Assembly (NCBI RefSeq): GCF_000214595.1
Contig: NZ_AFIG01000003.1
Location: 558,001-622,000 of the forward strand
DNA: 64,000 nucleotides
Source of the DNA: Methylophaga thalassica MP
GTDB taxonomy: Bacteria > Pseudomonadota > Gammaproteobacteria > Nitrosococcales > Methylophagaceae
Reading direction: 5' to 3'
In this document: positions 34,267-64,000 of the stretch, piece after piece
How positions within the stretch are numbered: the stretch's first letter is position 1
Layout: every line of letters begins with the position of its first letter
Translations under genes and position numbers: made by a program
The notes under the pieces: model-generated
The model's database searches: none
The model's input: only the letters and a program-made list of their open reading frames with translations
Told to the model about the DNA's origin: nothing

Positions 34267-34275
34267 TTTTATCCT

Positions 34276-37159: not shown

Positions 37160-37174
37160 TCGGGAATTTATTCC
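37160..37174. promoter_or_regulatory. candidate operator, TCGGGAATTTATTCC
   Basis: An inverted GGAAT-TT-ATTCC element just downstream of the response-regulator gene and about 240 bases before the DUF3450 start. It resembles motifs before xoxF1 (TCGGGATT, 54393-54400) and xoxF3 (TCGGGATATATTCCC, 58994-59008). The binding protein would plausibly be a NarL-type regulator; this is inference. Confidence 0.35.
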
Positions 37175-37202
37175 TATTCCTCTTTCCTTCAATATCAATT
37201 AT

Positions 37203-45797: not shown

Positions 45798-46121
45798 CTA
45801 ATATGTCGACATCGTGGTATCGACATCAATAGCCCAGCTATTCATACCACCCTCAAGGTTAATCACATCATTAAAGCCAACATGCTCAAGAAACTGGCCG
45901 ACTTGGGCACTTCGTTTACCGCTACGACAAATAATCGCAACCGTTTTATTTTGGTAAGGACCTAGCTCTTCCAAACGAGCGGGAATTTCGTTCATAGGAA
46001 TATGTATTGCCCCTTCAATCATGCCATGAATCAGTTCATGACTTTCCCGAACATCAATCATGACTGGTGGAGCTTCACTTAGTAATAAAGTGCTAAATTC
46101 AGTGGCGGTCATTTCTTTCAT
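45798..46121 (-). CDS. rhodanese-domain protein
   Basis: A 107-residue single-domain rhodanese (GlpE-like) with the active-site Cys in IICRSGKRSAQ. It probably transfers sulfur to a thiol acceptor. Lies between the PIMT-family gene (15-base gap) and tolC. Confidence 0.9.
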   Translation of the reverse strand: MKEMTATEFSTLLLSEAPPVMIDVRESHELIHGMIEGAIHIPMNEIPARLEELGPYQNKTVAIICRSGKRSAQVGQFLEHVGFNDVINLEGGMNSWAIDVDTTMSTY

Positions 46122-46136
46122 GTTTTCTACTCTGGT

Positions 46137-46793: not shown

Positions 46794-46970
46794 ATGTTGC
46801 CCCTATTATTGAGCTATGGCAGTTAGGAGACTAAGGATAAGTGCTTTATTATATAGGTGCAACTGTAGAGAAAACAGGGGAATATTAACATATGCTAATT
46901 CAGCCTTTCACTGTCAGAGCTCAATAAGCTTAGACCTGTAAGCCACGGATTATGGCGCACTCAAGACTGC

Positions 46971-47759
46971 CTATTTCTTACCAGTAGCCCGATGAAATAA
47001 AGGTTCATGAACTGACTCACGAGAAAAACGCCAACAAGCAATGCTTATCGCAAGCACTGAAAAAACTACCAACACTGAAATATCCGTCATGATAGAAAAA
47101 TCACTATTCGCCGTCGGCACAACATGTTTCATCAAATCAACGCCATAACTAAAGGGATTGATTAATACGACATATTTCAGCATCTCGGGTAATTGATTGA
47201 CTGGATATAGCGCACCGCTCAAGAAAAACACCGGGAAGATGAAAAAGTTCATAATCACCGCAAAATTATCCAAGGTTTTAGACCAGGCAGCGATCAAACC
47301 GCCTATTGCCGCACAGCATACCGCCGTCGCTAAAGCCGGTAATAATAACCATAATGCGACTTTCACTTCGATCAAACCAATCACGGTCAAAATCACTAAT
47401 AGTAGAATAGCCTGGACCATAGCGGTAATGGCTGCCGCAATTAATTTAGCGATAACTATTAGATAATGAGGAATAGGAGCGATCAACATCATACGCATCA
47501 CACCAAACTCTTTGTCATAAACCAAAGTTAATGCTGACAATAAAGCAGCAAATAATAAGGTCATCGCCACAATACCAGGCACCAGAAAACTAAGGTAGCC
47601 GGCTTGTTGCTCTCCCTGCAACATACTACCAACGCCAGAACCTATGACTAATAACCAAATCATAGGTCTGACCATGGCACTGAGAAGTCTTGCGCGTTGA
47701 CGGAAGACTTTCGTCAGCTCTCTTACCACCACCGCCTTAACAGCAAGCATATGTGTCAT
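46971..47759 (-). CDS. ABC-2 type permease of the pqq-linked exporter
   Basis: A 262-residue inner-membrane permease with about six hydrophobic helices and the ABC-2 signature region (FPVFFLSGALYPVNQLPEML). It overlaps the ATPase gene by four bases. ABC pairs of this type are known beside PQQ-dependent alcohol dehydrogenase systems (for example in Pseudomonas putida), but the cargo is unknown; here it ends the pqq operon. Confidence 0.88.
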   Translation of the reverse strand: MTHMLAVKAVVVRELTKVFRQRARLLSAMVRPMIWLLVIGSGVGSMLQGEQQAGYLSFLVPGIVAMTLLFAALLSALTLVYDKEFGVMRMMLIAPIPHYLIVIAKLIAAAITAMVQAILLLVILTVIGLIEVKVALWLLLPALATAVCCAAIGGLIAAWSKTLDNFAVIMNFFIFPVFFLSGALYPVNQLPEMLKYVVLINPFSYGVDLMKHVVPTANSDFSIMTDISVLVVFSVLAISIACWRFSRESVHEPLFHRATGKK

Positions 47760-48694
47760 GTCACTACCCCATAATCAGGTGGACATACCGTCCAGAGATA
47801 CACATCATTAAGATTAGGTTTACGCCACTGCATCGCATTAACGGCATTACCCAGCGTTTTTTGTAACTGATAAAAATCGGTTTCTTTATCTTGAATACGA
47901 TATGTCAGATGCTGATCTTCCCATAAAGGCTCGCCAAATTGCGGACGCATCTGCTGACTCACCACTTCAGTATCAGCACAATCAATTTCTAACATATAGG
48001 CCGCTAAATTTTTAATCAGCTTTTTAGGCGCACCACCTTTTTGTAATTGCCCTTTTTGAATAAAATCAACGTGATCGCAGGCTTCCGCTTCTTCCAGATA
48101 ATGTGTGGTCAGGAATACCGTCATGCCTTCATCTTTTCTTAGCTGTTCAATAAATCGCCATATTGACCGACGATTAGGCAAGTCTAGACCAATGGTAGGT
48201 TCATCTAAAAATAACACTTGTGGTTTATGTAAAACCCCACGGGCAATATCCACAGCGCGTCGTTGACCACCTGATAAGGCGACTAATTTTTGATGGCGTT
48301 TCTTTTCTAAGCCAAACACTGACAGTAGCTCAGCAATACGCTGTTCTGCTTGCTGTTTATTCAAGTTATACAAGGCGGCAGCAAACTGTAAGTTTTCATC
48401 CACCGTCATCATCCGATCAAGGGCTGAATCCTGGAAAACCAAGCCAACTAAAGCACGTGTTTGCACTGGATAACGTTTGACTTCACGACCAGCTATCCAA
48501 GCTTCGCCCGATGACGCTGAAGTCATCGTCGTCAACATATGAATAGTGGTACTTTTACCGGCACCATTTGGACCAAGCAAACCATAAAACTGTCCAGGCT
48601 CGATACTAAGATCCAGCCCATTAACAGCAAGGGCCTGACCATATTGCTTGGTCAGGCCCTTGGTTAAAATCGCATATTGATTTTTATAAGCCAC
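47756..48694 (-). CDS. ABC transporter ATPase of the pqq-linked exporter
   Basis: A 312-residue ATPase. Walker [10 protein letters not shown], the signature [15 protein letters not shown] and Walker [13 protein letters not shown] are all present. The GTG at 48694, which overlaps the pqqE stop by 11 bases, is preferred to an ATG deeper in pqqE. A 13-bp inverted repeat lies in its first codons. Transcribed with pqqABCDE; a role in PQQ or alcohol-oxidation physiology is inferred from position only. Confidence 0.9.
48628..48662 (-). repeat. 13-bp perfect inverted repeat inside the ABC ATPase start region
   Basis: CAAGGGCCTGACC, loop of nine, GGTCAGGCCCTTG, starting 22 bases after the pqqE stop on the transcribed strand. 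No T-tract follows. It could be an mRNA hairpin setting the ratio of pqq to ABC expression; see findings. Confidence 0.7.
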
Positions 48695-49877
48695 AAATTT
48701 CTTTTGAATTTTTCGGGTTTCTAAACACAAGTGGTTTGGCAATATCAGCTGGTTTCTCAGCTTCCTGCCGACCTTTCTCAATGGCTTCCAAAATAAGGTG
48801 ATGATCCGGTGATTTAGTACAAACTGGATCGGCCATCGCAGGATCGCCTGTCAGCATATAAGCCTGACAGCGGCACCCACCAAAATCTTTTTCTTTTTCA
48901 TCACAACTACGGCAAGGCTCTTTCATCCAGTCAAAGCCACGGAAACGATTAAAGTCATTCGACCCTTCCCAGATTTCCTTCACACTTAATTCTTTAACAT
49001 TGGGTAATTCCATGCCAGGCAATTCACGAGCTGCATGACATGGCAAAGCAGTACCATCTGGTGTCACGGTCAAAAATACATTACCCCAACCATTCATGCA
49101 GGCTTTGGGTCTATCTTCGTAATAATCAGGCACCACGTAGTAGATCTTCATATTACCTTTTTGCTTTTGCTGATATTCATGAGCAATCGCTTCAGCACGG
49201 ACTAATTGCTCTTTCATCGGTAATAGTTGATCACGATTATGCATTGCCCAGCCGTAATATTGAGTAGTTGCAAGCTCAACATAATCAGCATCGAGGTTGA
49301 TAGCCAGATCCAAAATTTCATCGATCTTATCGATATTCTGACGATGTGTAACAAAACACAACACCATAGGATAACCGGCGGCTTTGACCGCTTTTGCCAT
49401 CTCAATCTTATGCTGAAAAGCATCGGTACCAGCAATCAGGTTATTTAAATCTTCTGAACTCGCCTGGAAACTGACCTGGATATGATCCAGACCAGCCTCT
49501 TTAAACTCTTTTGCTTTATCTGCATTTAATCCCACACCTGAGGTAATCAGGTTGGTGTAAAACCCTAAATTTCTGGCTTCGCGGATAAGTTCAATCAGAT
49601 CGGGACGAGTTAGAGGCTCACCACCCGATAACCCCAGCTGAGTAGCTCCCATTTCACGTGCTTGACGAAAAACATTAATCCACTCTTCAGTTGTCAGCTC
49701 TTTTTTGACGCTAGCAAAATCCATAGGATTTGAGCAGTACGGGCATTGTAAAGGACAGGCATAAGTAAGCTCTGCCAATAACCATAGAGGCTGACGAATG
49801 CTATCACGGACATTCATTCCTACAGCACCACCGGTACTGCCAGGCGCTTTATTCTGGTCTGATCCAGTCGTTGTCAT
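48684..49877 (-). CDS. pqqE: PqqA peptide cyclase (radical SAM) PqqE
   Basis: A 397-residue radical SAM-SPASM enzyme that forms the Glu-Tyr carbon-carbon bond in PqqA. The CxxxCxxC motif lies in CPLQCPYC and the auxiliary cluster cysteines in the C-terminal [19 protein letters not shown] segment. The ATG at 49877 has a strong GGAGG site six bases ahead and overlaps pqqD by 29 bases. Confidence 0.96.
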
Positions 49878-50133
49878 GAGCTTCCTCCAAAAACTGATAG
49901 ACATCATCGTCTAAGTCAGCGCCATTAAAGGCTTCTTTAAGTTCGACGATAAGCTCGCCGACAGTTTGTTTTTTTTCACTTACCCGTTTCAGGATTTCAC
50001 CCGCAGCAGGGTTTAATTTCACCATACCTTCCGGATAAAGCAGTACATAACAATCCTGAGCTGGCTCCCATTGGAAACGGTAACCCAGGGCCAGCACAGG
50101 AGTCGAGTCAGCATTAAAGATGCGATCGGTCAT
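49849..50133 (-). CDS. pqqD: PQQ peptide chaperone PqqD
   Basis: A 94-residue RRE-fold protein that presents PqqA to Pqq[21 protein letters not shown] is the typical core. Overlaps pqqC by four bases. Confidence 0.95.
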
Positions 50134-50861
50134 TTTTCAACTTCCATAAAGTAAGGAGGACGTCCTTCAATATACGCCATCCACATCGCATCTAACATGG
50201 TCCATAAAATATCAAGCTTGAATTGTAATAAGTCGACAGCACGTTGTTGCTTCTCACGTGTGTCACAGTAATCAAGCGTAATTTGTAGGCCGTGATCTAC
50301 GTCACGACGCGCTTCACTTAAACGTTTACGGAAATAACGATATCCACGTTCGTCGATCCAGGGATACAAATCAGGCCAGTTATCTAGCCTCGCCTGATGG
50401 ATCTTTGGTGCAAATAACTCTGTTAACGAAGAGCCTGCAGCTTCCTGCCAGTTAGCCCGACGCGCGAAATTGACATACGCATCTACCGCAAAGCGGACAC
50501 CTGGTAATACATGTTGATGTGATTCCAGTTCGTCTCTTGTTAAACCAACAGCTTCACCCAGCTGCAACCAGGCTTCAATGCCACCTTCTTCTCCATCATA
50601 ACCATCATGATCAAGAATGCGTTGCACCCAGTGTTTACGTACTGAAGCATCTTCACAATTTGCCATAATGGCTGCATCTTTTATTGGAATCGCCGTTTGA
50701 TAATAAAAACGATTAGCGACCCAACCTTGAACTTGTTTTTGATCTAGCTTGCCTGCGTGCATCAATTTATGAAAAGGATGGTTGATATGATACAGCGACT
50801 CTTTTTCGCGTAATTTTTGTTCAAACTCTTCGCGTGTCCATGGTGCTGGTTTTTCTGACAT
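50130..50861 (-). CDS. pqqC: pyrroloquinoline-quinone synthase PqqC
   Basis: A 243-residue all-helical cofactorless oxidase that does the last oxidation and ring closure of PQQ. Start at the ATG preceded by [40 protein letters not shown] and [19 protein letters not shown] are PqqC signatures. Confidence 0.97.
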
Positions 50862-50891
50862 GTTTTGTTCCTCTAGAATCATCTTAGACTG

Positions 50892-51806
50892 TTAAAGCTC
50901 GATATCCATGCCGTCATACGACACTTCAATTCCAGCCGCTTCCAGCGTTTTTCGCTGGGGTGATTCCTCGTTGAGTATTGGATTAGTATTATTAATATGA
51001 ATCAGGAATTTACGTGGTTTATCCATACCACTGAGGATCTCCATGATCCCGCCTTTACTCGACTGATCAAGATGGCCCATTTCCTGCGCACGTTTATTAC
51101 TAATGCCTTCATGTGACATCTCATCATCGGTCCAAACGGTACCGTCAACGAGAACCATGTCGGCATTTGCCATATATTCCATAACATGCGGTTCTGCTAC
51201 ACCTAATCCTGGTGCATAGAATAAGTTTTTGCCGGTACGCGTATCTTCTATACGCATACCGATATTATCGCCAGGGACCGTATTATGACGATGCGGTGAA
51301 TAAGGAGGTGCTTCACTCTTCAAAGGCACGGCAGTAAACACGAGTCCTTCTGCTGTAGGAATGGTGAAGCTTGATTCATCCGTTGCAATTTCATGATGGT
51401 TGATGCCGCGGAAATGACCAAGGATATTAAATACTGGGAATCCTGTGGTCAGATCCTCATAAACAGCCTTGGTTGTGTATACATCCCATGGCTTATTATG
51501 TTCTCTAAGGGTTAGCATACCGGTGACATGGTCGATCTGTGCATCTGTGATCACTATCGCCGAGATAGCGGTATCTCTGACTTGTCTGGCAGGTTGTAAA
51601 GCGGGAAAATCATCCAGCTGTTTTTTGATATCAGGTGAAGCATTAAACAGAATCCAGTCTGTTCCGTTTGCACTGATAGCAATGGATGATTGTGTGCGAG
51701 GATTGGCCTTGATTGTGCCCTCTCTTACACCTTTGCAGTTAGTGCAATTACAATTCCACTGAGGAAAGCCACCACCGGCTCCAGAACCTAAAACATGTAC
51801 AAACAT
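50892..51806 (-). CDS. pqqB: PQQ biosynthesis protein PqqB
   Basis: A 304-residue metallo-beta-lactamase-fold protein that hydroxylates the cyclised Glu-Tyr intermediate. The start [15 protein letters not shown], the clustered Cys residues (NCNCTNC) and [11 protein letters not shown] motif are diagnostic. Confidence 0.97.
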
Positions 51807-51870
51807 AATTATCCTTAGAAACTTGCATTAGACCAGATAAGACTTTAACAAATTTTATCTGGTATAACGT

Positions 51871-51895
51871 TGCCCGGAGCAGAAAGCCCCGGGCA
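51871..51895 (-). promoter_or_regulatory. hairpin between pqqA and pqqB
   Basis: TGCCCGG, 11-base loop, CCGGGCA, 17 bases after the pqqA stop. Hairpins here are expected to reduce transcription into pqqB, letting the PqqA precursor be made in excess. No T-tract follows. Confidence 0.6.
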
Positions 51896-51911
51896 TACAT
51901 CAAAACCGTGA

Positions 51912-51983
51912 TTAACGGTTGCAGATGTACATGGTTACTTCAAAACCAAAACGCATATCTGAGTATTCAGGTTTAGTCCACAT
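51912..51983 (-). CDS. pqqA: PQQ precursor peptide PqqA
   Basis: A 23-residue peptide starting [16 protein letters not shown] and ending TMYICNR. The Glu and Tyr that become PQQ are in the E-V-T-M-Y motif (residues 15 and 19). An AGAGAGGA ribosome site precedes it. First gene of the pqq operon. Confidence 0.96.
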
Positions 51984-52073
51984 AACTATATCCTCTCTAA
52001 AATTGTTTTATTTAATGTCATCCAACCTATTTGAATGACGATTAGATAGTACACAGCAGATTGAGATGTTTCG

Positions 52074-52113
52074 TCAGGATTCCCCGCCTTGCCATTCAGG
52101 ATTTTCCTGATTC
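52074..52113. promoter_or_regulatory. TCAGGATT direct repeats upstream of pqqA
   Basis: Two TCAGGATT elements (52074-52081 and 52096-52103) are 22 bp apart, about two helical turns, 91-130 bases before the pqqA start. The second extends into a TCAGGA-TTT-TCCTGA inverted repeat. Candidate operator; factor unknown. The 490-bp pqqA-xoxF1 gap also holds the small-RNA candidate and the xoxF1 terminator. Confidence 0.4.
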
Positions 52114-52189
52114 ACCGAAAAGCTGTAGAGGCTCTATCTGCTTAGTTTTAGCTAAAGCAGTAGTTTTAAAATTTGATGAAAATGACTAA

Positions 52190-52391
52190 ATGTGCGGGAA
52201 GATCTTCTTAGCCTGGTCAGGCAAAAAACACCTAAATTTAAATGCATTTATGCTCACGACATGATTAACCATGGAAGATAGACTATTCACCAAGTTAGAG
52301 AATTTCAGCTTCTTTAATCTTTTTGTGGTTTACCACATTATTGCATTACCTATATTTCATTTAACCAGGCCCTGTGCCTGGTTTTTTTTTG
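52190..52391 (+). ncRNA. candidate small RNA between pqqA and xoxF1 (5' end not determined)
   Basis: A strong plus-strand terminator at 52364-52391 has no plus-strand gene upstream: pqqA, on the minus strand, starts at 51983, and no convincing plus-strand frame ends before it. A TGTGGTTTACCACA hairpin lies at 52324-52337. It meets the xoxF1 terminator tail to tail, as at the ends of two converging transcripts. The 5' boundary given is only a guess; no clear promoter was seen. Confidence 0.35.
52364..52391 (+). terminator. orphan plus-strand terminator
   Basis: ACCAGGC-CCTGT-GCCTGGT followed by nine T residues. Near-ideal Rho-independent terminator with no annotated plus-strand gene before it. 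Confidence 0.85.
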
Positions 52392-52394
52392 CTC

Positions 52395-52459
52395 AAAAAA
52401 AAGACCCGACATCAAAAGATACCGGGCCTTTTATTCAGACTAAGATTACGGAGTAATCT
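52395..52459 (-). terminator. xoxF1 3' UTR: palindrome plus terminator
   Basis: After the stop codon comes the palindrome AGATTACGGAGTAATCT (52443-52459), then a terminator hairpin (52403-52428) with T residues after it on the minus strand. The same unit follows xoxF3 and xoxF4. Confidence 0.85.
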
Positions 52460-52473
52460 ATATCATCTGGGTC

Positions 52474-54252
52474 TTACAGGCTGAATACGCTCAGAATACC
52501 ACCCAGGTTAGTCCAGCTAGACAGTGATTTATATGCACCGACTGCGCCCAGACCATCTGTTTCGTTTTCTAAGCTTGGAATCGCCATACCGATACCAGCC
52601 CAACCACCCACACCTGACAGTACAGAAATATACTGTTTACCGTCATGTTTGTAGGTGTTGACGTTACCGATTACACCTGATGCTGTTTTGAAGCGCCACA
52701 GTTCACGACCTGTTTGCGCATCAACGGCTTTCAGGTAACCTTCTAATGTACCGTAGAACACGACATCAGTCGCTGTTGCTAAGGCACCAGACCAGACTGA
52801 GAAACGTTCTGGGTTTGACCATACGATCTTACCTTCACGGGCATCCCAAGCGATGAAGTTACCTAAGTGTGTACCACCTGGTGCGGGATACATGCTTAAT
52901 GTTGCACCAACGTATGGTTGACCCGCTACGTATTCCACTTCAAATGGTTCATAGTCCATACAAACGTGGTTGGTTGGCACATAGTACAGACCTGTACGAG
53001 GCGAGAATGCCGCTGGCTGTTGGTCTTTAGAACCTAAAGCCGCAGGACAAATACCTGTTGTGTTAACGTCTTCACCGTTACGTGCAGTAGAGTATTTCGC
53101 TACACGATCATGTAAACCGGTTTTCAGGTTCACACCGTTTGACCAGTTAACCGCTGGATCATATTTTTCAGCCACTAACAGTTCACCAGTGACGCGGTCC
53201 ATGGTGTAACCAAAACCGTTACGATCAAAGTGGACAGCGGTTTTATGCATTTTACCATTCACTTTTTGTTCAGCGAGAATGACTTCATTCACACCATCAT
53301 AGTCCCACTCATCATGTGGTGTCATTTGGTAAACCCATTTCGCCATACCGGTGTCTAAGTCACGACCCCATAAAGACATGGTCCATTTGTTATCACCAGG
53401 ACGTTGAACCGGGTTCCAGGTAGATGGGTTACCGTTACCGTAGTAGAACATGTTCAGATCTGGATCGTATGAATACCAACCCCATGTTGTACCACCACCA
53501 ATTTTCCATTGGTCACCTTGCCAGGTTTTCAAAGATGAATCTTTGCCAACTGGTTTCAGCATAGACATGGTTTTGTTAGGATCAACTAACATTTCGTCAT
53601 CAGGACCCGTGCTGTATGCCGTGTACTGTTCTTTACCATCCAGGCTATAGGCTTTGATATAACCACGTACACCAAACTCACCACCTGAAATACCTACCAG
53701 AACTTTATCTTTAAATACGTGAGCCGCTGCAGTGCTGGTCGCACCACGTTTTGCATCATCACGTTTGTCAGACCAAACTACGCTACCGTCAGCGGCATTC
53801 AGAGCAACTAATGTTGTATCCGCTTGATTCAGGAAGATTTTTCCATCGCCATAGCTTAAACCACGGTTAACCGTGTCACAGCACATAACAGGCACTGTTT
53901 CATCGTAGTTTTGTTTGGGTTCATATTTCCATTTGATCGCACCATCATTATTTAAGTCCAATGCGAATACGATGTTTGGAAATGGTGTGTGAACGTACAT
54001 AGTACCGTCGATAACCAAAGCGTTACCTTCGTGACCACGTAAAACACCGGTTGAGAAAGACCATGCCATGTTTAAATCTTTGACATTATCTTTGTTAATT
54101 TCAGTTAATGTTGAGTAACGTGTATTTGAATAGTTACCTGCTGGCATTACCCAGTTATTCGGATTTTTTTGCATTTCAAGCAATTCATCAGCTACAGCCA
54201 AGCCAGGCGCAGTCAATGACATCATTGCGATTGATAAAGTTTTCAGCTTCAT
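52474..54252 (-). CDS. xoxF: lanthanide-dependent methanol dehydrogenase XoxF (copy 1)
   Basis: Periplasmic PQQ quinoprotein oxidising methanol to formaldehyde (and possibly formate). 592 residues; start at [10 protein letters not shown], with GAGG ahead, gives a proper signal peptide cut after Ala21. The PQQ-contacting vicinal Cys124-Cys125 ([10 protein letters not shown]), metal ligands Glu192, Asn275 and Asp317, and the extra Asp319 (EWDYDG) that marks lanthanide-dependent XoxF rather than calcium-dependent MxaF are present. Trp-docking motif repeats complete the propeller. Copy 1 differs from copies 3 and 4 in blocks. Its promoter region (54253-54426) holds a TCGGGATT motif. No xoxG or xoxJ follows. 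Confidence 0.95.
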
Positions 54253-54426
54253 TTTATATACCTCTAGTATTGAAGGTTTGTTTTTATAGGTGGCTAATCT
54301 ATAAATAACCACTGCTGAATACTTTATTCTTATTTTTCCCCTAGCACATTAGGAGCAACTCCCTATATAAGCAGGAATTAATCATAGTTAACTCGGGATT
54401 GACTTGGCGCTAGAAATGAATTCTGA

Positions 54427-55065
54427 TTATTCATTTAGAGTGATAACGTGATGCTTGAGTGCTAAACGAACCAGCTGAATGGGTGTCGCTATATTCAACT
54501 TTTGCTTTAACTGCGTTTGATAATTAGCCATTGTTTTGAGGCTGATCTTCAATTCTTTCGCGATGGATTCTACTTCCATACCTTCAGCAAGTAAACGAAA
54601 AATCTCAAACTCTCTAGGGGTAAGTATTGTGCTTGGCTCCAGATCATCAGCAACATTTTTTAATGCCAATTTTTCGGCAATATCCACACTCAGATATGTT
54701 TTGCCTGCAGCGACACTTCTAATGGCTAGCAGCAATTCTTCAGTTGTACTGGTTTTTCTTATGTAGGCTTTTGCACCAGATTGGATAGCTTCATTAGCAA
54801 AAAAAGACTCCGGCAGGTTCGAAAATATCATCACACGGGCGCTTGGGTATGTCATTGTAAGCTCATTAACCCTATTTAAGGTCGAGCCATAAGCCGTATT
54901 CATATCAATGATGAATACATCCGGTTGATACTCTTCATACAAGGCTGGCAGTTGATCACTCTGGTTGGTCTCTGCAATCACTAATATGTCATTCTGTTCT
55001 TCAATTAGACGTTTAATACCAGCACGTACAACATGATGCTCATCAACCAGAATGACTGTTATCAT
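54427..55065 (-). CDS. NarL-type response regulator without partner kinase
   Basis: A 212-residue regulator located 40 bases after xoxF2 on the same strand with no terminator between, so probably transcribed with it. Phospho-acceptor Asp54 (IIDMN) and the receiver Lys (AYIRK) remain, but the second acidic residue is Glu (VDEHH) and the loop after Asp54 is unusual (MNTAYGST instead of the MPGxGG type). The LuxR-type helix-turn-helix is intact (TPREFEIFRLLAEG). More divergent than the regulators at 59075 and 63283. It lies directly upstream of xoxF1. Confidence 0.9.
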   Translation of the reverse strand: MITVILVDEHHVVRAGIKRLIEEQNDILVIAETNQSDQLPALYEEYQPDVFIIDMNTAYGSTLNRVNELTMTYPSARVMIFSNLPESFFANEAIQSGAKAYIRKTSTTEELLLAIRSVAAGKTYLSVDIAEKLALKNVADDLEPSTILTPREFEIFRLLAEGMEVESIAKELKISLKTMANYQTQLKQKLNIATPIQLVRLALKHHVITLNE

Positions 55066-55105
55066 TAATATTTACATCACTTTTATCTTAGGAAAGTAAG
55101 TTGGC

Positions 55106-56899
55106 TTAGAGGCTAAAGACACTTAATACACCACCTAGATTTGTCCAGCTGGAAAGTGATTTGTATAAACCTACTGCTCCATCGCCATCAGCATCATTTT
55201 TTAGTCCCATCGCCATACCAATACCGGCCCAGCCACCCAGTCCAGATATCACTGAAACGTATTGTTTGCCATTATGTTCATAGGTATTGACGTTACCAAT
55301 GATTCCCGATGCCGTCTTAAAACGCCAAAGCTCGCGTCCAGTTTTGGCATCCACCGCTTTTAAGTAGCCTTCAAGGGTGCCGTAAAAAACAATATCTGAC
55401 CCAGTCGCCAAAGCACCTGACCAGACAGAAAAACGTTCTGGGTTAGACCAGACAATCTTGCCTTCACGGGCATCCCAGGCAATAAAATTACCTAAGTTGG
55501 GATCGTCATTTACCGGGTACATTGACAGGCTGGCTCCAACATATGGCTGACCGGCCACATACTCGACTTCAAATGGTTCATAATCCATACAAACATGATT
55601 GGTTGGCACGTAAAACAAACCGGTTCGTGGAGAATAAGCCGCCGGTTGCTGATCTTTTGACCCTAACGCTGCAGGACAAATACCCGTTGTATTCTCATCT
55701 TCACCATTAAAATCGGGCGAATATTGTTGAACACGGTCATGCCTTCCGGTGGTTAAATCAACCCCTTTTGACCAGTTCACAGATGGATCAAATTTCTTCG
55801 CCAGTAATAACTCACCCGTTTCTCTATCCATGGTGTAGGCAAAACCATTCCTATCAAAGTGAACTGCGGTTTTGCGTAGTTTATTTTTAATTTTCTGATC
55901 ACTGAGAATAATTTCATTCACACCGTCATAATCCCATTCATCATGAGGTGTCATTTGGTAAATCCACTTTGCCATTCCACTATCCAAATCTCTGGCAAAC
56001 AATGACATAGTCCACTTATTGTCACCGGGTCGTTGTACGGGATTCCATGTGGAAGGATTTGCTGTCCCGTAATAGAACAGATTTAAGTCAGGATCGTATG
56101 AAAACCAACCCCATGTGACACCGCCACCGATTTTCCATTGATCACCCTGCCATGTTTTCAGAGATGAATCTTTACCTACCGGTTTCAACATTGAGGTGGT
56201 TTTTACAGGATCTACCAACATCTCATCATCGGGTCCTGTGGTATAGGCTTTATACTTCACATTCCCCTGTAAATCATATGCCTGAACATAACCACGAATA
56301 CCAAATTCACTGCCAGAAATGCCGACTAAAACCGTATCTTTAAAAACAAAAGCGGCGCCAGTACTGGTGGCACCTGTCCTTGGGTCATCACGTTTATCAG
56401 ACCAAACGACTTTACCTGTGTGCATATCCAACGCAACCAAGGTCGTATCTGCCTGATTAAGAAATATTTTTCCATCTGCATAAGCCAGGCCTCGGTTGAC
56501 CGTATCACAGCACATGACTGGCACAGTTTCGTCATAGCTCTGCTTGGGTTCGTATTTCCATTTAATAGCACCGTCATTATTTAAATCGAGCGCATAAACA
56601 ATATTAGGGAAAGGTGTATGAATATATAGAGTATCGTCAATGACTAGAGAATTGCCTTCATGACCACGTAAAACACCTGTCGAAAAAGACCAGGCCATGT
56701 TCAGCTTGTTAATATTTTTTTTATTGATTTGCTTGAGTGATGAGTATCGTTGGTTATTATAATTTCCGGCTGGCATCACCCAGTTTGCCGGATCATCTTG
56801 AAGTTTTTGTAATTCATCAGCTTGGCTGGTGCCAGCATAAATTCCGACTGCAGAAGCAATTAAAAATCTTAGAAATGTCATATTACTCAGTTTATTCAT
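55106..56899 (-). CDS. xoxF: XoxF-type methanol dehydrogenase (divergent copy 2)
   Basis: A 597-residue XoxF with Cys130-Cys131 and the Asp323/Asp325 pair in EWDYDG, so lanthanide-type. It is clearly the outlier: different signal peptide ([16 protein letters not shown]...), many substitutions throughout ([16 protein letters not shown]), a shorter C-terminal loop ([10 protein letters not shown]), a weak ribosome site, and neither the shared 3' UTR nor a terminator, reading on into the response-regulator gene. It may have a different role or be expressed at a lower level. Confidence 0.93.
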
Positions 56900-57030
56900 T
56901 AAAAATGCGTTTTCAGGGCATGTAGGTCATCACACTCTATGCCTAAAAAACGAATGAATCACCGGCAAATCTTCCCGATCTGACCAGTCTGAGTATTTTC
57001 ACATGTGACAAGTGAACCTTGGCTGAATAA

Positions 57031-57091
57031 AAAAAGCCCGACATCAAACGATGCCGGGCCTTTTATTCAGACTAAGATTACGGAGTAATCT
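57031..57091 (-). terminator. xoxF3 3' UTR: palindrome plus terminator
   Basis: Palindrome AGATTACGGAGTAATCT at 57075-57091 and terminator GCCCGACATC-AAAC-GATGCCGGGC at 57036-57059 followed by Ts. Same order and spacing as after xoxF1 and xoxF4. Confidence 0.88.
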
Positions 57092-57105
57092 ATATCATCT
57101 GGGTC

Positions 57106-58884
57106 TTACAGGCTGAATACGCTCAGAACACCACCCAGGTTAGTCCAGCTAGACAGTGATTTATATGCACCGACTGCGCCTAGACCATCTGTTTCGTTTT
57201 CTAAGCTTGGGATCGCCATACCGATACCAGCCCAACCACCGACACCTGACAGTACAGAAATATACTGTTTACCGTCATGTTTGTAGGTGTTGACGTTACC
57301 GATAACGCCTGATGGAGTTTTGAATCTCCACAGCTCACGACCTGTTTGCGCATCAACGGCTTTCAGGTAACCTTCTAATGTACCGTAGAACACGACGTCA
57401 GAAGCGGTTGCTAAGGCACCAGACCAGACTGAGAAACGTTCTGGGTTTGACCATACGATCTTACCTTCACGGGCATCCCAAGCGATGAAGTTACCTAAGT
57501 GTGTACCACCTGGTGCGGGGTACATGCTTAATGTTGCACCAACGTATGGTTGACCTGCTACATATTCCACTTCAAATGGTTCATAGTCCATACATACATG
57601 GTTGGTTGGCACGTAGAACAGACCTGTGCGTGGAGAATACGCTGAAGGTTGCTCATCTTTAGAACCCAATGCTGCAGGGCATACGCCAGATGTATTCACA
57701 TCTTCACCGTTACGTGCAGTAGAGTACTTCGCTACACGATCATGTAAACCGGTTTTCAGGTTCACACCGTTTGACCAGTTAACCGCTGGATCATATTTTT
57801 CAGCCACTAACAGTTCACCAGTGACGCGGTCCATGGTGTAACCAAAACCGTTACGGTCAAAGTGGACAGCAGTTTTATGCATTTTGCCTTTCACTTTTTG
57901 ATCAGCAAGTACAACTTCGTTGATACCGTCATAATCCCACTCATCATGTGGCGTCATTTGGTAAACCCATTTCGCCATACCGGTGTCTAAGTCACGACCC
58001 CATAGAGACATTGACCATTTGTTATCACCAGGACGTTGAACCGGGTTCCAGGTAGATGGATTACCTGAACCATAGTAGAACATGTTCAGATCTGGATCGT
58101 ATGAATACCAACCCCATGTTGTACCACCACCAATTTTCCATTGGTCACCTTGCCAAGTTTTCAAAGATGAATCTTTGCCAACCGGCTTCAGCATAGACGT
58201 TGTTTTGTTAGGATCAACTAACATTTCATCATCAGGACCCGTGCTGTAGGCTTTGTATTTAACGTTACCATCTAAGTCATAGGCTTGAACGTAACCACGT
58301 ACACCAAACTCACCACCTGAGATACCGACTAACACTTTATCTTTGAATACAAATGCAGCACCCGTGCTTGTTGCACCACGTTTAGCATCATCACGTTTAT
58401 CAGACCAAACCACTTTGCCGTCTTCAGCATTTAATGCAACAAGTGTTGTATCGGCTTGGTTCAGGAAGATTTTGCCGTCTGCATAGCTTAAACCACGGTT
58501 AACCGTGTCACAGCACATAACAGGCACTGTTTCATCGTAGTTTTGTTTTGGCTCATATTTCCATTTGATCGCACCGTCACTGTTTAAGTCCAACGCATAA
58601 ACGATGTTTGGGAAAGGAGTATGCACATACATAGTGTCACCGATAACCAAAGAGTTACCTTCGTGACCACGTAAAACACCGGTTGAGAAAGACCATGCCA
58701 TGTTTAAATCTTTGACATTGTCTTTGTTGATTTGAGTTAATTCAGAGTAACGTTGGTTGTTGTAGTTACCTGCTGGCATTACCCAGTTATTCGGATCTTT
58801 TTGCATTTGCAATAATTCATCAGCAGCAGCCAAGCTTGGCACAGCTAAAGTCATCATTGCGATTGATAAAGTTTTCAGCTTCAT
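57106..58884 (-). CDS. xoxF: lanthanide-dependent methanol dehydrogenase XoxF (copy 3)
   Basis: 592 residues, all catalytic residues as in copy 1 (CC in [17 protein letters not shown]). ATAGAGG ribosome site seven bases before the ATG. The N-terminal third matches copy 4 ([26 protein letters not shown]), while the C-terminal half matches copy 1 ([35 protein letters not shown]). The promoter region (58885-59074) contains CGGGATATATTCCC. It is directly downstream of HK-RR2. Confidence 0.95.
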
Positions 58885-58994
58885 TAGAGTGACCTCTATT
58901 AATTGTTATTTAACATGACGGCAACACTGGCCGGTCAGGGAGGACTCTATTCGGCTTTTACCTTCTTTTCATTAGGGAATAATCACCCATAGTT

Positions 58995-59008
58995 CGGGAT
59001 ATATTCCC
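58995..59008. promoter_or_regulatory. candidate operator upstream of xoxF3
   Basis: CGGGATATATTCCC, an inverted GGGA/TCCC element 111-124 bases before the xoxF3 start. A second GGGAAT stands at 58975-58980. Resembles elements at 63200-63218 and 37160-37174. Binding factor is inferred. Confidence 0.4.
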
Positions 59009-59074
59009 AAGCATGGCGGAAAGGCTTCCCACACAATATTAATAAGATTCCTGAAAATAATTGAAAATCTAGTA

Positions 59075-59713
59075 TTAACTGCTGACTACACCGTACTTTA
59101 TGGCTAAGCGAACCATTTCTGCCGATGAATTAAAACCCAATTTATGTTTTAACATGGTCTGGTAATTAGCAATAGTTTTCGCTTCCAGACTTAACTGGGA
59201 GGCAACCTGTGAAATGGTCAGTCCTTCAGCCAACAGCCTGAATATTTCAAACTCACGAGTACTCAATCTTTGGGTAGGGTCATCCGAGCCAGACACACTT
59301 TGCATAGCAATTTTCTGTGCCATTTCAGCACTTAAAAAGTTTTTGCCATTCATTACCTGATGAATAGCCGTCACCAGGTCTTGACTATCACCTGATTTGA
59401 TAACGTAACCTTTTGCTCCAGCACTCATTGCTTGCATCGCTAATGTCACATTTTCATGCATTGAAAAGACAATAATACGAGCATTTCGAAACTTACCACA
59501 GATCCTTCTTACTGCTTCCAAACCGCCAATACCCGGCATCGACATATCAGTGATCAGGATGTCGGGTAATAATTCTGTGTATGCCTGATAGGCTTTTTCC
59601 CCGCTTGGAATTTCTTTCACAACCTGAAACTCATCGTAACTGTTCAGCATACTCGCTAGACCTGATCGTACAATCTCATGATCATCAGCCAATAGAATCT
59701 TAATTTTTGCCAT
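59075..59713 (-). CDS. NarL/FixJ-type response regulator (pair with kinase at 59700)
   Basis: A 212-residue regulator starting at ATG 59713 with GGAGAG ahead, overlapping the kinase stop by 14 bases. Receiver residues Asp10-Asp11 and Asp57 (ILITDMSMPGIGG) and a LuxR-type helix-turn-helix (STREFEIFRLLAEG; KTIANYQTMLKHKL) are intact. It lies just upstream of xoxF3 and is the likely regulator of that gene. Related to Mox/Mxa-type regulators of methanol oxidation by position, not proven. Confidence 0.92.
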   Translation of the reverse strand: MAKIKILLADDHEIVRSGLASMLNSYDEFQVVKEIPSGEKAYQAYTELLPDILITDMSMPGIGGLEAVRRICGKFRNARIIVFSMHENVTLAMQAMSAGAKGYVIKSGDSQDLVTAIHQVMNGKNFLSAEMAQKIAMQSVSGSDDPTQRLSTREFEIFRLLAEGLTISQVASQLSLEAKTIANYQTMLKHKLGFNSSAEMVRLAIKYGVVSS

Positions 59714-61055
59714 CGATCTCTCCGATACCACACGGTAGCTTCACTTTAATTTTCATGCCTTGTCCTGGCTGACTTTCAATATGAATGTGACCTGATACTG
59801 TCTCTACCCGTTCTCGCATACCTAATAATCCATAGCCTTTTTTTATCAAGTTTAAATCGCATCCCTGACCGTTATCCATCACGTCGATAATAATGTCATT
59901 GTCTTTTCTGTAAAGCAGAATTTTAGCTTCAACATTGTTACCAGCGTGACGACTGATGTTAGTTAAACCTTCCTGAATGATACGGTAACAGCTTAATTGC
60001 ATATGCTCATCAAGTAACCTCAAATTACAATTTATGGTCAATTCAAGTTGATGCTGCGGATGGTTATAAATCCAGTCATTAACCAACTCATGTAAACAAT
60101 GTGCCAAACCAAATTCAGATAAATTAGGGGGGCGTAATTGTTTAAGATTCGATCTCAGAATATCTGACATTCTCTCGCTACGTTGCCTTAGATTAGCGAT
60201 GGTATTTTCTTTTGTATTGGGATCATCTGAGTGATAAAACTTGTCCAACTCAATACGCATTGTGGTTAAAAGTTGACCAAGCTCATCGTGTAGCTCTGCC
60301 GCAATACGCTTTCGTTCGATTTCTTGTAATTCAACGGCTTTTCTCTTTTGTATGTGAAAAACCTTTTTTAAACTCTCACTTGACTCAATAATACGAAAAA
60401 TAAGGCGTTTGATATTGGATAAGGATAGATAACGTAGACGTCCAGTTTTCTCTTCCTTCTGCCTTGGAAAGTTAAGTTGACCGTCAATACGCTCTAAAAT
60501 GAGTGAGAACAGAAACACGACCAGGCAGCTTGATAATATGAATGTAAATAAAATGGGAATTAATAACTCGGCAATACCTATCCCAACATATTTCAGCTCA
60601 TGATATATATCACTGCGAATAATGACTTCACCGACATGCCTGGAGTGAATCACTACCGGCTCAACAATATAAACAGATTTAAGATGAAAGATATCTAAAA
60701 TGACTTTCATCACTTTTGTCATCACCCCATCAGTATCAGATTGATATTGATGATTACTTTCAATCATAGAACCATCTTGAGAGATGAACTCAATATTCAA
60801 ACGATCTAAATTACGCCATTGTTGTAGTTCAAATATAGGAATCTGATTTTTATCTGTCTCGGCGATATTAAAATCGTCAATCTGCTCACGAATCATAGAT
60901 GAAACCAAGGTGGCTTCCTGAGTAGTTTCACGATGGTTAATCAAGTAGATTTGTACTAGGGCTAAGACTTCTAAGAAAATTAGAAAGCAAATTAATCCAG
61001 CGATAAATAACGCTACTTTCTGTGCAACTGAGCCGGTCAATATTTTATTCATCAA
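59700..61055 (-). CDS. NarX/DegS-type sensor histidine kinase
   Basis: A 451-residue kinase: helix about 14-38, periplasmic region 39-157, helix about 158-187, HisKA_3 with His256 (AAELHDELGQ) and HATPase domain (VMDNGQGCDLN, GYGLLGMRERV). The periplasmic part is short and lacks a recognised domain, though it faces the compartment where XoxF acts, so it could sense methanol, a lanthanide, or their effects. Starts after the xoxF4 terminator. Confidence 0.92.
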   Translation of the reverse strand: MMNKILTGSVAQKVALFIAGLICFLIFLEVLALVQIYLINHRETTQEATLVSSMIREQIDDFNIAETDKNQIPIFELQQWRNLDRLNIEFISQDGSMIESNHQYQSDTDGVMTKVMKVILDIFHLKSVYIVEPVVIHSRHVGEVIIRSDIYHELKYVGIGIAELLIPILFTFILSSCLVVFLFSLILERIDGQLNFPRQKEEKTGRLRYLSLSNIKRLIFRIIESSESLKKVFHIQKRKAVELQEIERKRIAAELHDELGQLLTTMRIELDKFYHSDDPNTKENTIANLRQRSERMSDILRSNLKQLRPPNLSEFGLAHCLHELVNDWIYNHPQHQLELTINCNLRLLDEHMQLSCYRIIQEGLTNISRHAGNNVEAKILLYRKDNDIIIDVMDNGQGCDLNLIKKGYGLLGMRERVETVSGHIHIESQPGQGMKIKVKLPCGIGEIDGKN

Positions 61056-61241
61056 TACCCTTATCGTGAGGCTTAAAAATACCTGTAGTCCCTAACGAAA
61101 TAAGTTTGGTATTTAGGTTTTCATACCCAAGCACACCTTGCTACATCAACATCCTTAGATATAAACAATGCAGTCGAAGCCGACTATTATAGCTTTTTTA
61201 ACCACAGACACACCTAGAATCCCATTTTGATTTAGAGATAT

Positions 61242-61305
61242 AAAAAAAGGCCCGACATCAAAAGATACCGGGCCTTTTATTCAGACTAAGATTACAGAGT
61301 AATCT
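61242..61305 (-). terminator. xoxF4 3' UTR: palindrome plus terminator
   Basis: Palindrome AGATTACAGAGTAATCT at 61289-61305 (one loop base changed from the other two copies, stem intact) and terminator GGCCCGACATC/GATACCGGGCC at 61249-61274 followed by Ts. Confidence 0.88.
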
Positions 61306-61319
61306 ATATCATCTGGGTC

Positions 61320-63098
61320 TTACAGGCTGAATACGCTCAGAACACCACCCAGGTTAGTCCAGCTAGACAATGCTTTATAAGCACCGACTGCGCCTAGACC
61401 ATCTGAGCTGTTTTCTAAGTCAGGAATCGCCATACCGATACCAGCCCAACCACCGACACCTGACAGCACAGAAACGTACTGTTTACCGTCATGTGTGTAA
61501 GTATTGACGTTACCGATTACACCTGATGCTGTTTTGAAGCGCCATAGTTCACGACCTGTTTGTGCATCAACGGCTTTCAGATAACCTTCCAATGTACCGT
61601 AGAACACGACATCAGTCGCTGTTGCTAAGGCACCAGACCAGACTGAGAAACGTTCTGGGTTTGACCATACGATCTTACCTTCACGGGCATCCCAAGCGAT
61701 GAAGTTACCCATGTGAGTACCACCTGGTGCAGGGAACATATTCAGCGTTGCACCCACATAAGGTTGACCCGCTACGTATTCCACTTCAAATGGTTCATAG
61801 TCCATGCATACATGGTTGGTTGGCACATAGTACAGACCTGTACGAGGCGAGAATGCCGCTGGCTGTTGGTCTTTAGAACCTAAAGCCGCAGGACAAATAC
61901 CCGTAGTATTAACGTCTTCGCCATTGGCTGCTGTTGAGTATTTTGCAGCACGCTCAGGCAGACCTGTTTTCATATTAATACCAGTTGCCCAGTTAACTGC
62001 TGGATCATATTTTTCAGCCACTAACAGTTCACCCGTGACGCGGTCCATGGTGTAACCAAAACCGTTACGGTCAAAGTGGACAGCGGTTTTACGCATTTTG
62101 CCTTTCACTTTTTGATCAGCAAGAATGACTTCGTTGATACCGTCATAATCCCACTCATCATGTGGCGTCATTTGGTAAACCCATTTCGCCATACCGGTGT
62201 CTAAGTCACGACCCCATAGAGACATTGACCATTTGTTATCACCAGGACGTTGAACCGGGTTCCAGGTAGATGGATTACCTGAACCATAGTAGAACATGTT
62301 CAGATCGGGGTCATAAGAAATCCAGCCCCAAGTGGTACCACCACCAATTTTCCATTGGTCACCTTGCCAGGTTTTCAAAGATGAATCTTTGCCAACTGGT
62401 TTCAGCATAGACATGGTTTTGCTTGGATCAACTAACATTTCTTTGTCAGGACCTGTGCTGTATGCCGTGTACTGTTCTTTACCATCCAGGCTATAGGCTT
62501 TGATATAACCACGTACACCAAACTCACCGCCTGAGATACCGACTAAGACTTTGTCTTTAACAACAAATGCAGCGCCTGTGCTGGTTTCACCTTTTTTAGG
62601 ATCACCACGTTTATCAGACCAAACCACTTTGCCGTCTTCAGCATTTAATGCAACAAGTGTTGTATCGGCTTGGTTCAAGAAAATTTTGCCATCGCCATAG
62701 CTTAAACCACGGTTAACCGTGTCACAGCACATAACAGGCACTGTTTCATCGTAGTTTTGTTTGGGTTCATATTTCCATTTCATCGCACCATCGTTGTTTA
62801 AGTCCAACGCATAAACGATGTTTGGGAAAGGAGTATGGACATACATAGTGTCACCGATAACCAAAGAGTTACCTTCGTGACCACGTAAAACACCGGTTGA
62901 GAAAGACCATGCCATGTTTAAATCTTTGACATTGTCTTTGTTGATTTGAGTTAATTCAGAGTAACGTTGGTTGTTGTAGTTACCTGCTGGCATTACCCAG
63001 TTATTCGGATTTTTTTGCATTTCAAGCAATTCATCGGCAGCAGCCAAGCCTGGCACTGCCAATGTCATCATTGCTAATGACAAAGTTTTCAGCTTCAT
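61320..63098 (-). CDS. xoxF: lanthanide-dependent methanol dehydrogenase XoxF (copy 4)
   Basis: 592 residues with the vicinal Cys pair and EWDYDG. Signal peptide almost as in copies 1 and 3. It shares the N-terminal third with copy 3, an internal stretch with copy 1 ([19 protein letters not shown]) and has private changes ([37 protein letters not shown]). Ribosome site TAGGG before ATG. Its promoter region (63099-63282) has a TTCCCG/CGGGAA inverted repeat. Downstream of RR3. Confidence 0.95.
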
Positions 63099-63199
63099 TT
63101 TTAATCCCTAGTGTTTGATTACAGAACATGTCGAGAGGAATAACAACGACATGGTTCCCACACTTTATGCTCGTTATGCCCAAGAATCATTACCAAAGA

Positions 63200-63218
63200 T
63201 TCCCGATTTTAGCGGGAA
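63200..63218. promoter_or_regulatory. candidate operator upstream of xoxF4
   Basis: TTCCCGATTTTAGCGGGAA, 6-bp half-sites separated by seven bases, about 100-120 bases before the xoxF4 start. Size and symmetry suit a dimeric NarL-type regulator; inference. Confidence 0.45.
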
Positions 63219-63282
63219 CAAATCGACACAACTTAAGGAAGTAAAACCTAAACTGATGAAATAATTGTCATTTAATCAAAAA

Positions 63283-63927
63283 TCACTGCTCCGTAATTAC
63301 ACCATATTTCATGGCCAATCTGACCAATTCAACCGGAGAATGAATATCTAGCTTCTGTTTGAGACTTGTTTGGTAATTAGCTACTGTTTTTTGACCGATA
63401 TTTAATCGTCCCGCAATTTCTTCTACTAACTTTCCTTCCGCCAATAAACGGAAAACTTCAAATTCCCGTGAAGTTAATCTTTGCGTCGGGTTATCATCGC
63501 CAGTCAAACTTTGCAAAGCGACTTTTTGTGCCATATCTGCACTCAAAAAGCTTTTGCCTGACGCGACTTCTTTTACTGCCTTAACAAGATCCTCAGCATT
63601 ACCCGATTTTGCTACGTAACCCATGGCGCCAGCGGTCAGCGACTGAATTGCATAGGTCGCATTTTCATGCATAGAGAACATAATGACTCGTGCATCAGGC
63701 CAACGATGAAGAATCCTGCGTAATGCCTCAAGCCCCCCCATACCAGGCATCGACATATCCATCACTAAAACATCCGGACGATTCTCCGGATAAGTTTGAT
63801 AGGCCTGTTCTCCACTCTCCGCTTCAGCAATCACTTTTATGTCTGAATTTTGTTCGAGTAATCGACATAAACCTGATCTGACTACGGCATGGTCATCAGT
63901 CAGCATGACTTTAATTAACTGGCTCAC
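63283..63927 (-). CDS. NarL/FixJ-type response regulator (pair with kinase at right edge)
   Basis: A 214-residue regulator with Asp11-Asp12, Asp57 (VLVMDMSMPGMGG) and the LuxR-type helix-turn-helix (TSREFEVFRLLAEGK; KTVANYQTSLKQKL). Starts at GTG 63927, overlapping the kinase stop by four bases (GTGA). Very close to the regulator at 59075, consistent with module duplication. Upstream of xoxF4. Confidence 0.92.
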   Translation of the reverse strand: MSQLIKVMLTDDHAVVRSGLCRLLEQNSDIKVIAEAESGEQAYQTYPENRPDVLVMDMSMPGMGGLEALRRILHRWPDARVIMFSMHENATYAIQSLTAGAMGYVAKSGNAEDLVKAVKEVASGKSFLSADMAQKVALQSLTGDDNPTQRLTSREFEVFRLLAEGKLVEEIAGRLNIGQKTVANYQTSLKQKLDIHSPVELVRLAMKYGVITEQ

Positions 63928-64000
63928 GCATTATCTCCTTGTTTGGGAACCGTCACATCAATCGTGACGCCTTGATTTAAATTAGATGTAATATCAAAAG
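63924..64000 (-). CDS. sensor histidine kinase, C-terminal end only
   Basis: Twenty-four codons plus stop run in from the right edge on the minus strand, reading FDITSNLNQGVTIDVTVP before the stop. The pattern of a Gly followed by a V-x-V-x-V-P strand is how NarX-type HATPase domains end (compare GQGMKIKVKLP in the kinase at 59700). With the four-base overlap to the regulator gene, it is most likely its partner kinase. The rest is outside the window. Confidence 0.7.
   Translation of the reverse strand, partial: FDITSNLNQGVTIDVTVPKQGDNA

Follow-up and report, generated by a model that had tools for sequence, protein, structure and literature searches.

A tandem array of four xoxF genes interspersed with genes of two-component systems (TCSs) adjoins pqqABCDE in Methylophaga thalassica MP, within a stretch of 64,000 nucleotides (hereafter the window) corresponding to C1:558001-622000 of a genome of 3.26 Mb in three contigs (labelled G000). 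Four XoxF with their regulators, on one strand and next to pqqABCDE, had been recognised in a preliminary description made from the sequence alone, and the open reading frames (ORFs), their order and their profile matches all agree with it. Because promoters and regulators diverge while xoxF1, xoxF2 and xoxF4 stay alike, the array is viewed here, at a probability of roughly 55%, as one lanthanide-dependent enzyme placed under several partly overlapping switches, by way of xoxF activation by response regulators (RRs).

Organisation of the array and the XoxF of the genome

On the minus strand, the gene order is (HK1)-RR1-xoxF1-HK2-RR2-xoxF2-xoxF3-RR3-xoxF4-pqqA-pqqBCDE, where HK stands for histidine kinase and the numbering of xoxF runs along that strand, i.e., in reverse of the preliminary one (Table 1). 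HK1, the kinase in brackets, overlaps the window edge. The four array ORFs score 717-734 bits against TIGR03075 (cut-off 480), i.e., they are quinoproteins of the methanol/ethanol family, and their best PDB matches by sequence are the XoxF structures 6oc5 and 6dam (917 and 916 bits), all others scoring at most 662 bits. All seven XoxF of the genome exhibit the motif DEWDYD, the second Asp of which we take to be a lanthanide-site residue, while MxaF exhibits DEWDYA. From this PDB ranking, which holds no XoxF4 reference, and from literature placing Methylophaga XoxF in clade XoxF5 (PMC6548844, in excerpt), the array XoxF would be of the XoxF5 type.

In total, the genome encodes seven xoxF plus mxaF, the xoxF outside the array lying at (i) C3:622871, together with xoxJ (J copy), (ii) C3:195921 (c3a), near another HK-RR pair, and (iii) C1:723681 (c1), alone. 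The earlier statement that neither xoxG nor xoxJ accompanies any copy holds for the four array copies but not genome-wide, a XoxJ-type gene (TIGR03871, above cut-off) following xoxF at C3:622871. As for xoxG, a search of the genome with one XoxG/MxaG model (TIGR03872) returned as its sole match above cut-off the mxaG-type gene near mxaF. An HK-RR pair precedes the latter gene (C3:528126), genes of the mxaJ and mxaG types follow it, and the rest of its operon is probably present as well. For MxaF, the best PDB match is 5xm3_A (1497 bits across all 627 residues, versus 1120 for the runner-up), 5XM3 being the Methylophaga aminisulfidivorans enzyme according to an excerpted source (PMC9728263); by this match, the source of the window would be that species or a very near relative.

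Conservation of the locus

The common layout in Methylophaga is M48 protease-soxY-soxZ-HK0-RR0-HK1-RR1-xoxF-pqqABCDE. The four-copy array order is found in G000, G021 and G022, a single xoxF at the locus in G002, G007 and G009, RR-xoxF-RR-xoxF in G023, and three xoxF with the extra regulators absent in G005. An RR lies directly upstream of a same-strand xoxF in 15 of 24 Methylophaga genomes (G000, G002, G004-G010, G012, G016, G017, G021-G023); among the other nine, G001 exhibits xoxF3-RR3, G003 xoxF-HK-RR, the locus is cut at a contig end in G013, G018 and G020, and G011, G014, G015 and G019 fell outside the inspection. With the same order in G021 and G022 and RR-xoxF adjacency in 15 genomes, the arrangement is not a matter of chance. 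HK1 is kept in G012, and G017 lacks it, the RR standing alone before xoxF.

In sister genera (G029, G030, G031, G042, G056), this regulator block is followed by another dehydrogenase, 40-42% identical to the best-matching XoxF here. The one of G031 is followed by a XoxJ-type gene above cut-off and has 7o6z as best PDB match (801 bits), which we take to be a XoxF1-type enzyme. In G033 and G055, the order is HK-RR-xoxF, with xoxF 87-88% identical. In most loci inspected, sister genera included, the regulator block is headed by soxY, soxZ and an M48 protease (BepA-like, below cut-off; L011:17978-19977, where L011 is the locus record whose position 13924 equals window position 63924), a neighbourhood that bears on the oxidation of thiosulfate by XoxF, put forward as speculation in an excerpt of PMC6548844.

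Concerted evolution of the xoxF copies

Protein identity among xoxF1, xoxF2 and xoxF4 amounts to 91.6-92.6%, with identical metal-site motifs, DEWDYD included. Third-codon identity reaches 0.74-0.85 among these three and the J copy, versus 0.43-0.55 in pairs with xoxF3, c3a or c1. Identical runs measure 179 nt (xoxF1-xoxF2), 119 nt (xoxF1-xoxF4) and 128 nt (xoxF2-xoxF4), lengths attained in 0, 0 and 2 of 2000 codon permutations, respectively; xoxF1-c1 and xoxF2-c1 exhibit runs of 41 nt, attained in 10 and 18 of 2000. The stretch shared by the homogenised copies begins 1-17 nt ahead of the ATG, ends some 77-87 nt past the stop codon and thus comprises gene and terminator, promoter excluded.

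In the XoxF tree (57 rows, less 9 shorter than 500 aa), xoxF3 forms a separate orthologous clade, and the pqq-side copies of G002, G007 and G023 each group with the J copy of their own genome; XoxF trees do not track loci in Methylophaga. The approximately unbiased (AU) test, run on 27 rows (MxaF, xoxF3, c1, c3a and loci L045, L049 and L057 excluded) with groups defined by genomic place and tested after the tree was seen, rejects the J-locus xoxF as one clade (p-AU 0.00067) and likewise a clade of the four J-locus copies of G002, G007, G009 and G010 (p-AU 4.3e-38).

Along the locus, G000 and the same-species G022 are 98-100% identical over L011 1501-11000 and 78-89% identical beyond about 11000, from xoxF1 outward, i.e., on the soxYZ-HK0-RR0-HK1-RR1-xoxF1 side, with 91-94% at pqqBC; three other loci of this pair are 95.7-99.3% identical. 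Since identity to G022 drops at xoxF1 while that to G021 stays at 86-95% along the locus, the profile points to an exchanged block probably ending near xoxF1/HK2. In G010, downstream partners are swapped (gltX-xoxF-pqq and RR-xoxF-xoxJ; L033, L034), as by a crossover inside xoxF or possibly in an assembly chimera. Contigs end in or beside xoxF in G004, G006, G008, G016-G020, G023 and others; near-identical copies break assemblies, so that draft genomes can undercount xoxF.

Regulators and sensor kinases

RR1, RR2 and RR3 each exhibit the NarL/FixJ architecture in Pfam (Response_reg receiver plus GerE), with identities of 56% (RR1-RR2), 46% (RR1-RR3) and 35% (RR2-RR3). In alignment, the phospho-acceptor Asp, the Ser/Thr and the Lys are kept in all three; in RR3, with Asp, Ser and Lys retained, DE replaces DD and the MPGxGG loop is lost. 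At the recognition-helix position, which we adopt from NarL, RR1-RR3 have KT(V/I/M)ANYQT in common, RR0 exhibiting GTHHT in place of ANYQT. Because of this common helix, cross-binding among the predicted targets of RR1-RR3 is likely, and insulation should not be assumed.

On the sensor side, HK1 and HK2 are 22% identical in their periplasmic parts; in HK2, two hydrophobic stretches seen by eye enclose a part with no domain assignment that is probably periplasmic. Between G000 and G023, HK1 exhibits 48% identity in the periplasmic part and 69% in the kinase core, HK0 83% and 79%, respectively. The periplasmic domain LapD_MoxY_N has no match at E<=0.1 in HK1 or HK2 and one at E=0.019 in HK0, and an AlphaFold model of HK2 (with a single orthologue, L017) had a pLDDT of 39.6, too low for a fold search. 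In trees that returned long-branch warnings, RR2 and HK2 group with xoxF-linked RR and HK of other Methylophaga rather than with RR1 and HK1 (92/98 and 97/94), the partner of RR3 being the second RR of G023 (99/100).

Promoters of xoxF and the TCGGGA dyad

The upstream regions of the four array xoxF differ from one another. The dyad TCGGGA-N5/6-TCCCGA, searched as TYGGGAN{5,6}TCCCRA, occurs twice in the 3.26 Mb genome, ahead of xoxF2 and ahead of xoxF-xoxJ. Reversed as a control, the pattern likewise occurs twice, so that the evidence for this dyad lies in the placement of the sites, not in their number. The 24 genomes together contain 54 sites, whereas the control, compared by number only, yields 37. 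Of the 54, 28 are upstream of xoxF, i.e., 24 before a visible start and four in a matching spacer at a contig end; among the remaining 26, none of the 12 inspected precedes xoxF.

A position weight matrix (PWM) built from xoxJ-linked sites only, with the background rebuilt so as to exclude the true site, picks the xoxF2 promoter in all three genomes that have it (p 0.004-0.005) and six of 12 RR1-type promoters (G002, G006, G007, G009, G010, G016), with 0 of 1500 random segments as good. As PWM results differ among copies, the array contains promoters of different kinds.

Before xoxJ-linked xoxF, an inverted repeat ACGCATG...TCGTGNCGT is conserved in 11 of 13 aligned genomes (e.g., L014 upstream of 7871). 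A leader hairpin before xoxF was considered and is unproven: the xoxJ-type leader is conserved and barely covaries, with shuffle z-scores from +0.6 to -5.7. A TCGGGA-type dyad also precedes a small predicted secreted protein in G015 and G023 (L069, L075; 130 and 128 aa), that of G023 having no Pfam match.

pqqA copies and the TCAGGA dyad

The dyad found before pqqA, searched as TCAGGANNNTCCTGA, has 55 sites in the 24 genomes versus five for the control, a stronger result than that of the xoxF dyad. In 49 of the 55, the centre is AAA (TCAGGAAAATCCTGA), and 47 of these 49 have a pqqA 60-170 nt downstream, orphan copies included; the two left over lie 108 and 151 bases into their own contigs, where the gene was possibly cut off. 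None of the six sites with another centre is near pqqA. Conversely, the pqqA pattern recovers 107 genes in the 24 genomes, i.e., two to eight per genome, with the exact dyad before 47.

G000 has four copies: that of the window; C3:449195, with the exact dyad; C3:1734585, without it and 5.4 kb from another close RR relative; and C1:623452 (L011:15412-15483), also without it, between RR0 and HK1. A pqqA between RR0 and HK1 occurs likewise in G004, G005, G012, G016, G017, G018, G021, G022 and G023, as well as in the sister-genus loci L081, L082, L083 and L085.

Two other readings of these elements were dismissed. A structured RNA in the pqqA block is unsupported, low-score Rfam matches near pqqA were regarded as chance, and dispersed dyads acting as gene-end terminators would fit the 10 of 17 lying at or just past a stop codon, yet a stand-alone pqqA follows. 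A c-di-GMP riboswitch beside pqqA is listed for strain GP59 (PMC12530212); none of that type was seen in G007 L041:9400-10000.

Gene boundaries and other features of the window

The start of xoxF4 is probably ATG 54252 rather than GTG 54312, because ATGAAGCTGAAA is shared with xoxF1 and xoxF2, and xoxF3 and RR3, separated by 40 nt, may be co-transcribed. Terminator-like hairpins lie 3' of xoxF1, xoxF2 and xoxF4; the scan, which returned 14 hairpins against 10.2 (sd 3.4) in shuffles, lists that of xoxF1 only, the other two coming from direct reading. Sigma-70 promoter scans did no better than shuffles (26 versus 32.5), and Rfam at gathering scores had no match in window positions 46000-64000 or in nine pqq loci.

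Elsewhere in the window (31959-39177), a gene run DUF3450-ExbB-ExbB-TonB-TPR is headed by a MoxY-like kinase (37732-39177, matching LapD_MoxY_N) together with a close RR relative. At 28012-31325, a DinB+FGE-sulfatase+methyltransferase protein (712 aa) adjoins an aminotransferase-fold enzyme, a pair which, as we assume, resembles ovothiol synthesis (OvoA, OvoB).

Table 1. Features of the xoxF-pqq region, in window positions.
Feature	Position	Strand	Description
HK1, C-terminal end	63924..64000	-	Sensor histidine kinase (HisKA_3, HATPase_c, HAMP); remainder beyond the window (L011:13924-15267)
RR1	63283..63927	-	NarL/FixJ-type response regulator, directly upstream of xoxF1
xoxF1 promoter region	63162..63218	-	Half-sites TTCCCG...CGGGAA (63200-63218), in order opposite to the dyad; conserved block ending ATAAAGT
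xoxF1 (preliminary xoxF4)	61320..63098	-	Methanol dehydrogenase, probably XoxF5-type
Terminator-like hairpin 3' of xoxF1	61245..61278	-	In hairpin scan list
HK2	59700..61055	-	Histidine kinase (HisKA_3+HATPase_c)
RR2	59075..59731	-	NarL/FixJ-type response regulator
Dyad TTGGGAATATATCCCGA upstream of xoxF2	58994..59010	-	One of two exact sites genome-wide
xoxF2 (preliminary xoxF3)	57106..58884	-	TIGR03075 match
Terminator-like hairpin 3' of xoxF2	57029..57063	-	Read from sequence, outside scan list
Weak promoter-proximal dyad version upstream of xoxF3	56962..56978	-	p=0.002 (all-site PWM), 0.037 (xoxJ-type-only PWM)
xoxF3 (preliminary xoxF2)	55106..56899	-	Diverged copy, 79-82% identity to xoxF1, xoxF2, xoxF4
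RR3	54427..55065	-	Response regulator, no kinase adjoining
xoxF4 (preliminary xoxF1)	52474..54252	-	ATG start preferred
Terminator-like hairpin 3' of xoxF4	52395..52431	-	Read from sequence, outside scan list
Dyad TCAGGAAAATCCTGA upstream of pqqA	52096..52110	-	Kept before pqqA copies across the genus
pqqA	51912..51983	-	23 aa; sequence pattern
pqqB	50892..51806	-	TIGR02108
pqqC	50130..50882	-	TIGR02111
pqqD	49849..50133	-	TIGR03859
pqqE	48684..49907	-	TIGR02109
ABC transporter ATPase + permease	46971..48781	-	Second-best NCBIfam models are quinoprotein-associated ABC systems, both below cut-off

A model for the array and its rivals

What we infer beyond these observations concerns RR binding, activation, signals and expression. 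The tandem array of four xoxF units would have grown from a simpler Methylophaga locus by addition of regulator-xoxF units, the putative ancestor being M48 protease-soxYZ-HK0-RR0-pqqA-HK1-RR1-xoxF-pqqA-pqqBCDE. In xoxF1, xoxF2, xoxF4 and the distant xoxF-xoxJ copy, gene conversion would keep the coding regions alike, while promoters, RRs and sensors diverge. Most likely, phosphorylated NarL-type RRs would activate xoxF by binding dyads of TCGGGA half-sites, HK1 and HK2 feeding different periplasmic cues into an RR pool with a common recognition helix. Through the dyad of TCAGGA half-sites on pqqA, regulators of this kind would also govern how much precursor of pyrroloquinoline quinone (PQQ) is supplied. 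With TCGGGA (xoxF) and TCAGGA (pqqA) one base apart, enzyme and cofactor precursor may be under the control of sister regulators.

Several points weigh against this model. By PWM, there is no full dyad at xoxF1 (p=0.13) or xoxF4 (p=0.12) here and none at the c1 and c3a promoters, and that of xoxF3 is weak; the J-only PWM misses the other six of 12 RR1-type promoters (the own-clade ones of G000, G004, G005, G021, G022 and G023) and is not significant at any of five xoxF4-type promoters. It is the xoxF-xoxJ copy, with no NarL-type RR adjoining, that has the best dyad. Identical runs in pairs with this distant copy are weaker (5, 7 and 84 of 2000 permutations), and with xoxF3 followed by RR3 in G001, RR3 might belong with either xoxF3 or xoxF4. 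Finally, RR binding and xoxF activation are predictions from sequence. For the pqqA dyad, RR0 may be a candidate partner, its recognition helix differing from that of RR1-RR3. A more tentative extension would see the locus as a hub with many sensors and one enzyme, where gene conversion holds the enzyme constant, fast-changing sensor kinases are exchanged, and a TCGGGA code on xoxF (RR1-RR3) is paralleled by a TCAGGA code on dispersed pqqA (perhaps RR0).

The main rival, though rather unlikely, is gene dosage, in which the copies respond in concert and serve to raise the output of one abundant enzyme, the regulators being redundant relics of duplication. Near-identical enzymes homogenised by gene conversion and a recognition helix common to the RRs are compatible with it, as is the joint rise of four xoxF in the biofilm of another Methylophaga, M. 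nitratireducenticrescens GP59, in the available part of PMC12530212. There, all four were higher in biofilm samples (without true replicates), and mxa was higher in oxic planktonic culture; these are the nearest expression data found, from a strain in which such an array may be absent. Yet RRs and kinases diverge strongly with their domains intact, promoters are of different types and RR-xoxF pairing recurs across the genus.

The preliminary description had favoured a set of four individually controlled isoenzymes, with every copy answering to a metal, methanol or oxygen condition of its own. Separate control is plausible, in view of the hairpins after xoxF1, xoxF2 and xoxF4, the differing upstream regions, RRs at 35-56% identity and HK1/HK2 sensors at 22%. 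Tuning to metal identity, on the contrary, is unlikely for xoxF1, xoxF2 and xoxF4, which share the metal-site motifs checked and bear gene-conversion signals, and whose RRs probably have common targets; for xoxF3, the only clearly diverged copy and a distinct orthologous clade, it may hold. As a whole, the isoenzyme account appears improbable. Just as improbable is a reading in which the regulators act chiefly on PQQ supply or on the mxa/xox switch and adjoin xoxF incidentally, with the array a recombination by-product at a repeat: despite the pqqA between RR0 and HK1, the far more exclusive pqqA dyad, the same block before a different dehydrogenase in sister genera and the HK-RR pair of mxaF itself, the TCGGGA dyad sits at xoxF promoters and is strongest at a locus far from pqq.

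Relation to known systems and significance

The array XoxF resemble known XoxF5 lanthanide methanol dehydrogenases in PDB ranking and DEWDYD, the difference being four tandem copies, three of them homogenised, with neither xoxG nor xoxJ adjoining. In the ped cluster of Pseudomonas putida, a lanthanide switch, PedS2/PedR2 are a kinase and a LuxR-type regulator whose genes likewise adjoin those of PQQ alcohol dehydrogenases and of an ABC transporter (PMC12997753, in excerpt); this likeness concerns gene layout, and one TCS serves two different enzymes there, whereas several TCSs stand before near-identical copies here. MxbDM/MxcQE (Methylorubrum) and MxaY/MxaB (Methylotuvimicrobium) also represent TCS control of alternative methanol dehydrogenases but are described, in the accessible part of the source, as mxa/xox switches, not as one module per xoxF copy (PMC11845868). 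In Methylophaga thiooxydans, two xoxF near pqqBCDE have already been reported; the term "response regulator" is absent from that text, and promoters and the evolution of the copies are not treated in its available sections (PMC6548844). Excerpts further mention a PQQ producer grown on methanol that has five pqqA copies (PMC9851590), five such copies in Methylovorus (as cited in PMC11317620) and two orphan pqqA of M. extorquens AM1 changing fourfold with the form of neodymium (PMC11317620); unlike in these methylotrophs, one dyad is common to pqqA copies across the genus here, with one of the copies located within the xoxF regulator block.

As far as these partial sources go, TCS control of PQQ dehydrogenases (PMC11845868, PMC12997753), xoxF beside pqq (PMC6548844) and multiple pqqA (PMC9851590, PMC11317620) were thus already known. 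The array with one regulator per copy, both dyads and the concerted evolution are apparently new: a literature search, with most subscription papers outside its coverage, returned no paper on xoxF-regulator arrays and none for "xoxF" with "gene conversion". Lanthanide sensing, methanol dehydrogenase switching and the role of orphan pqqA are standing questions for bacteria, for which a marine methylotroph supplies several natural sensor-regulator-promoter sets before nearly the same enzyme, together with two short, defined dyads, on xoxF and on pqqA, that are directly testable.

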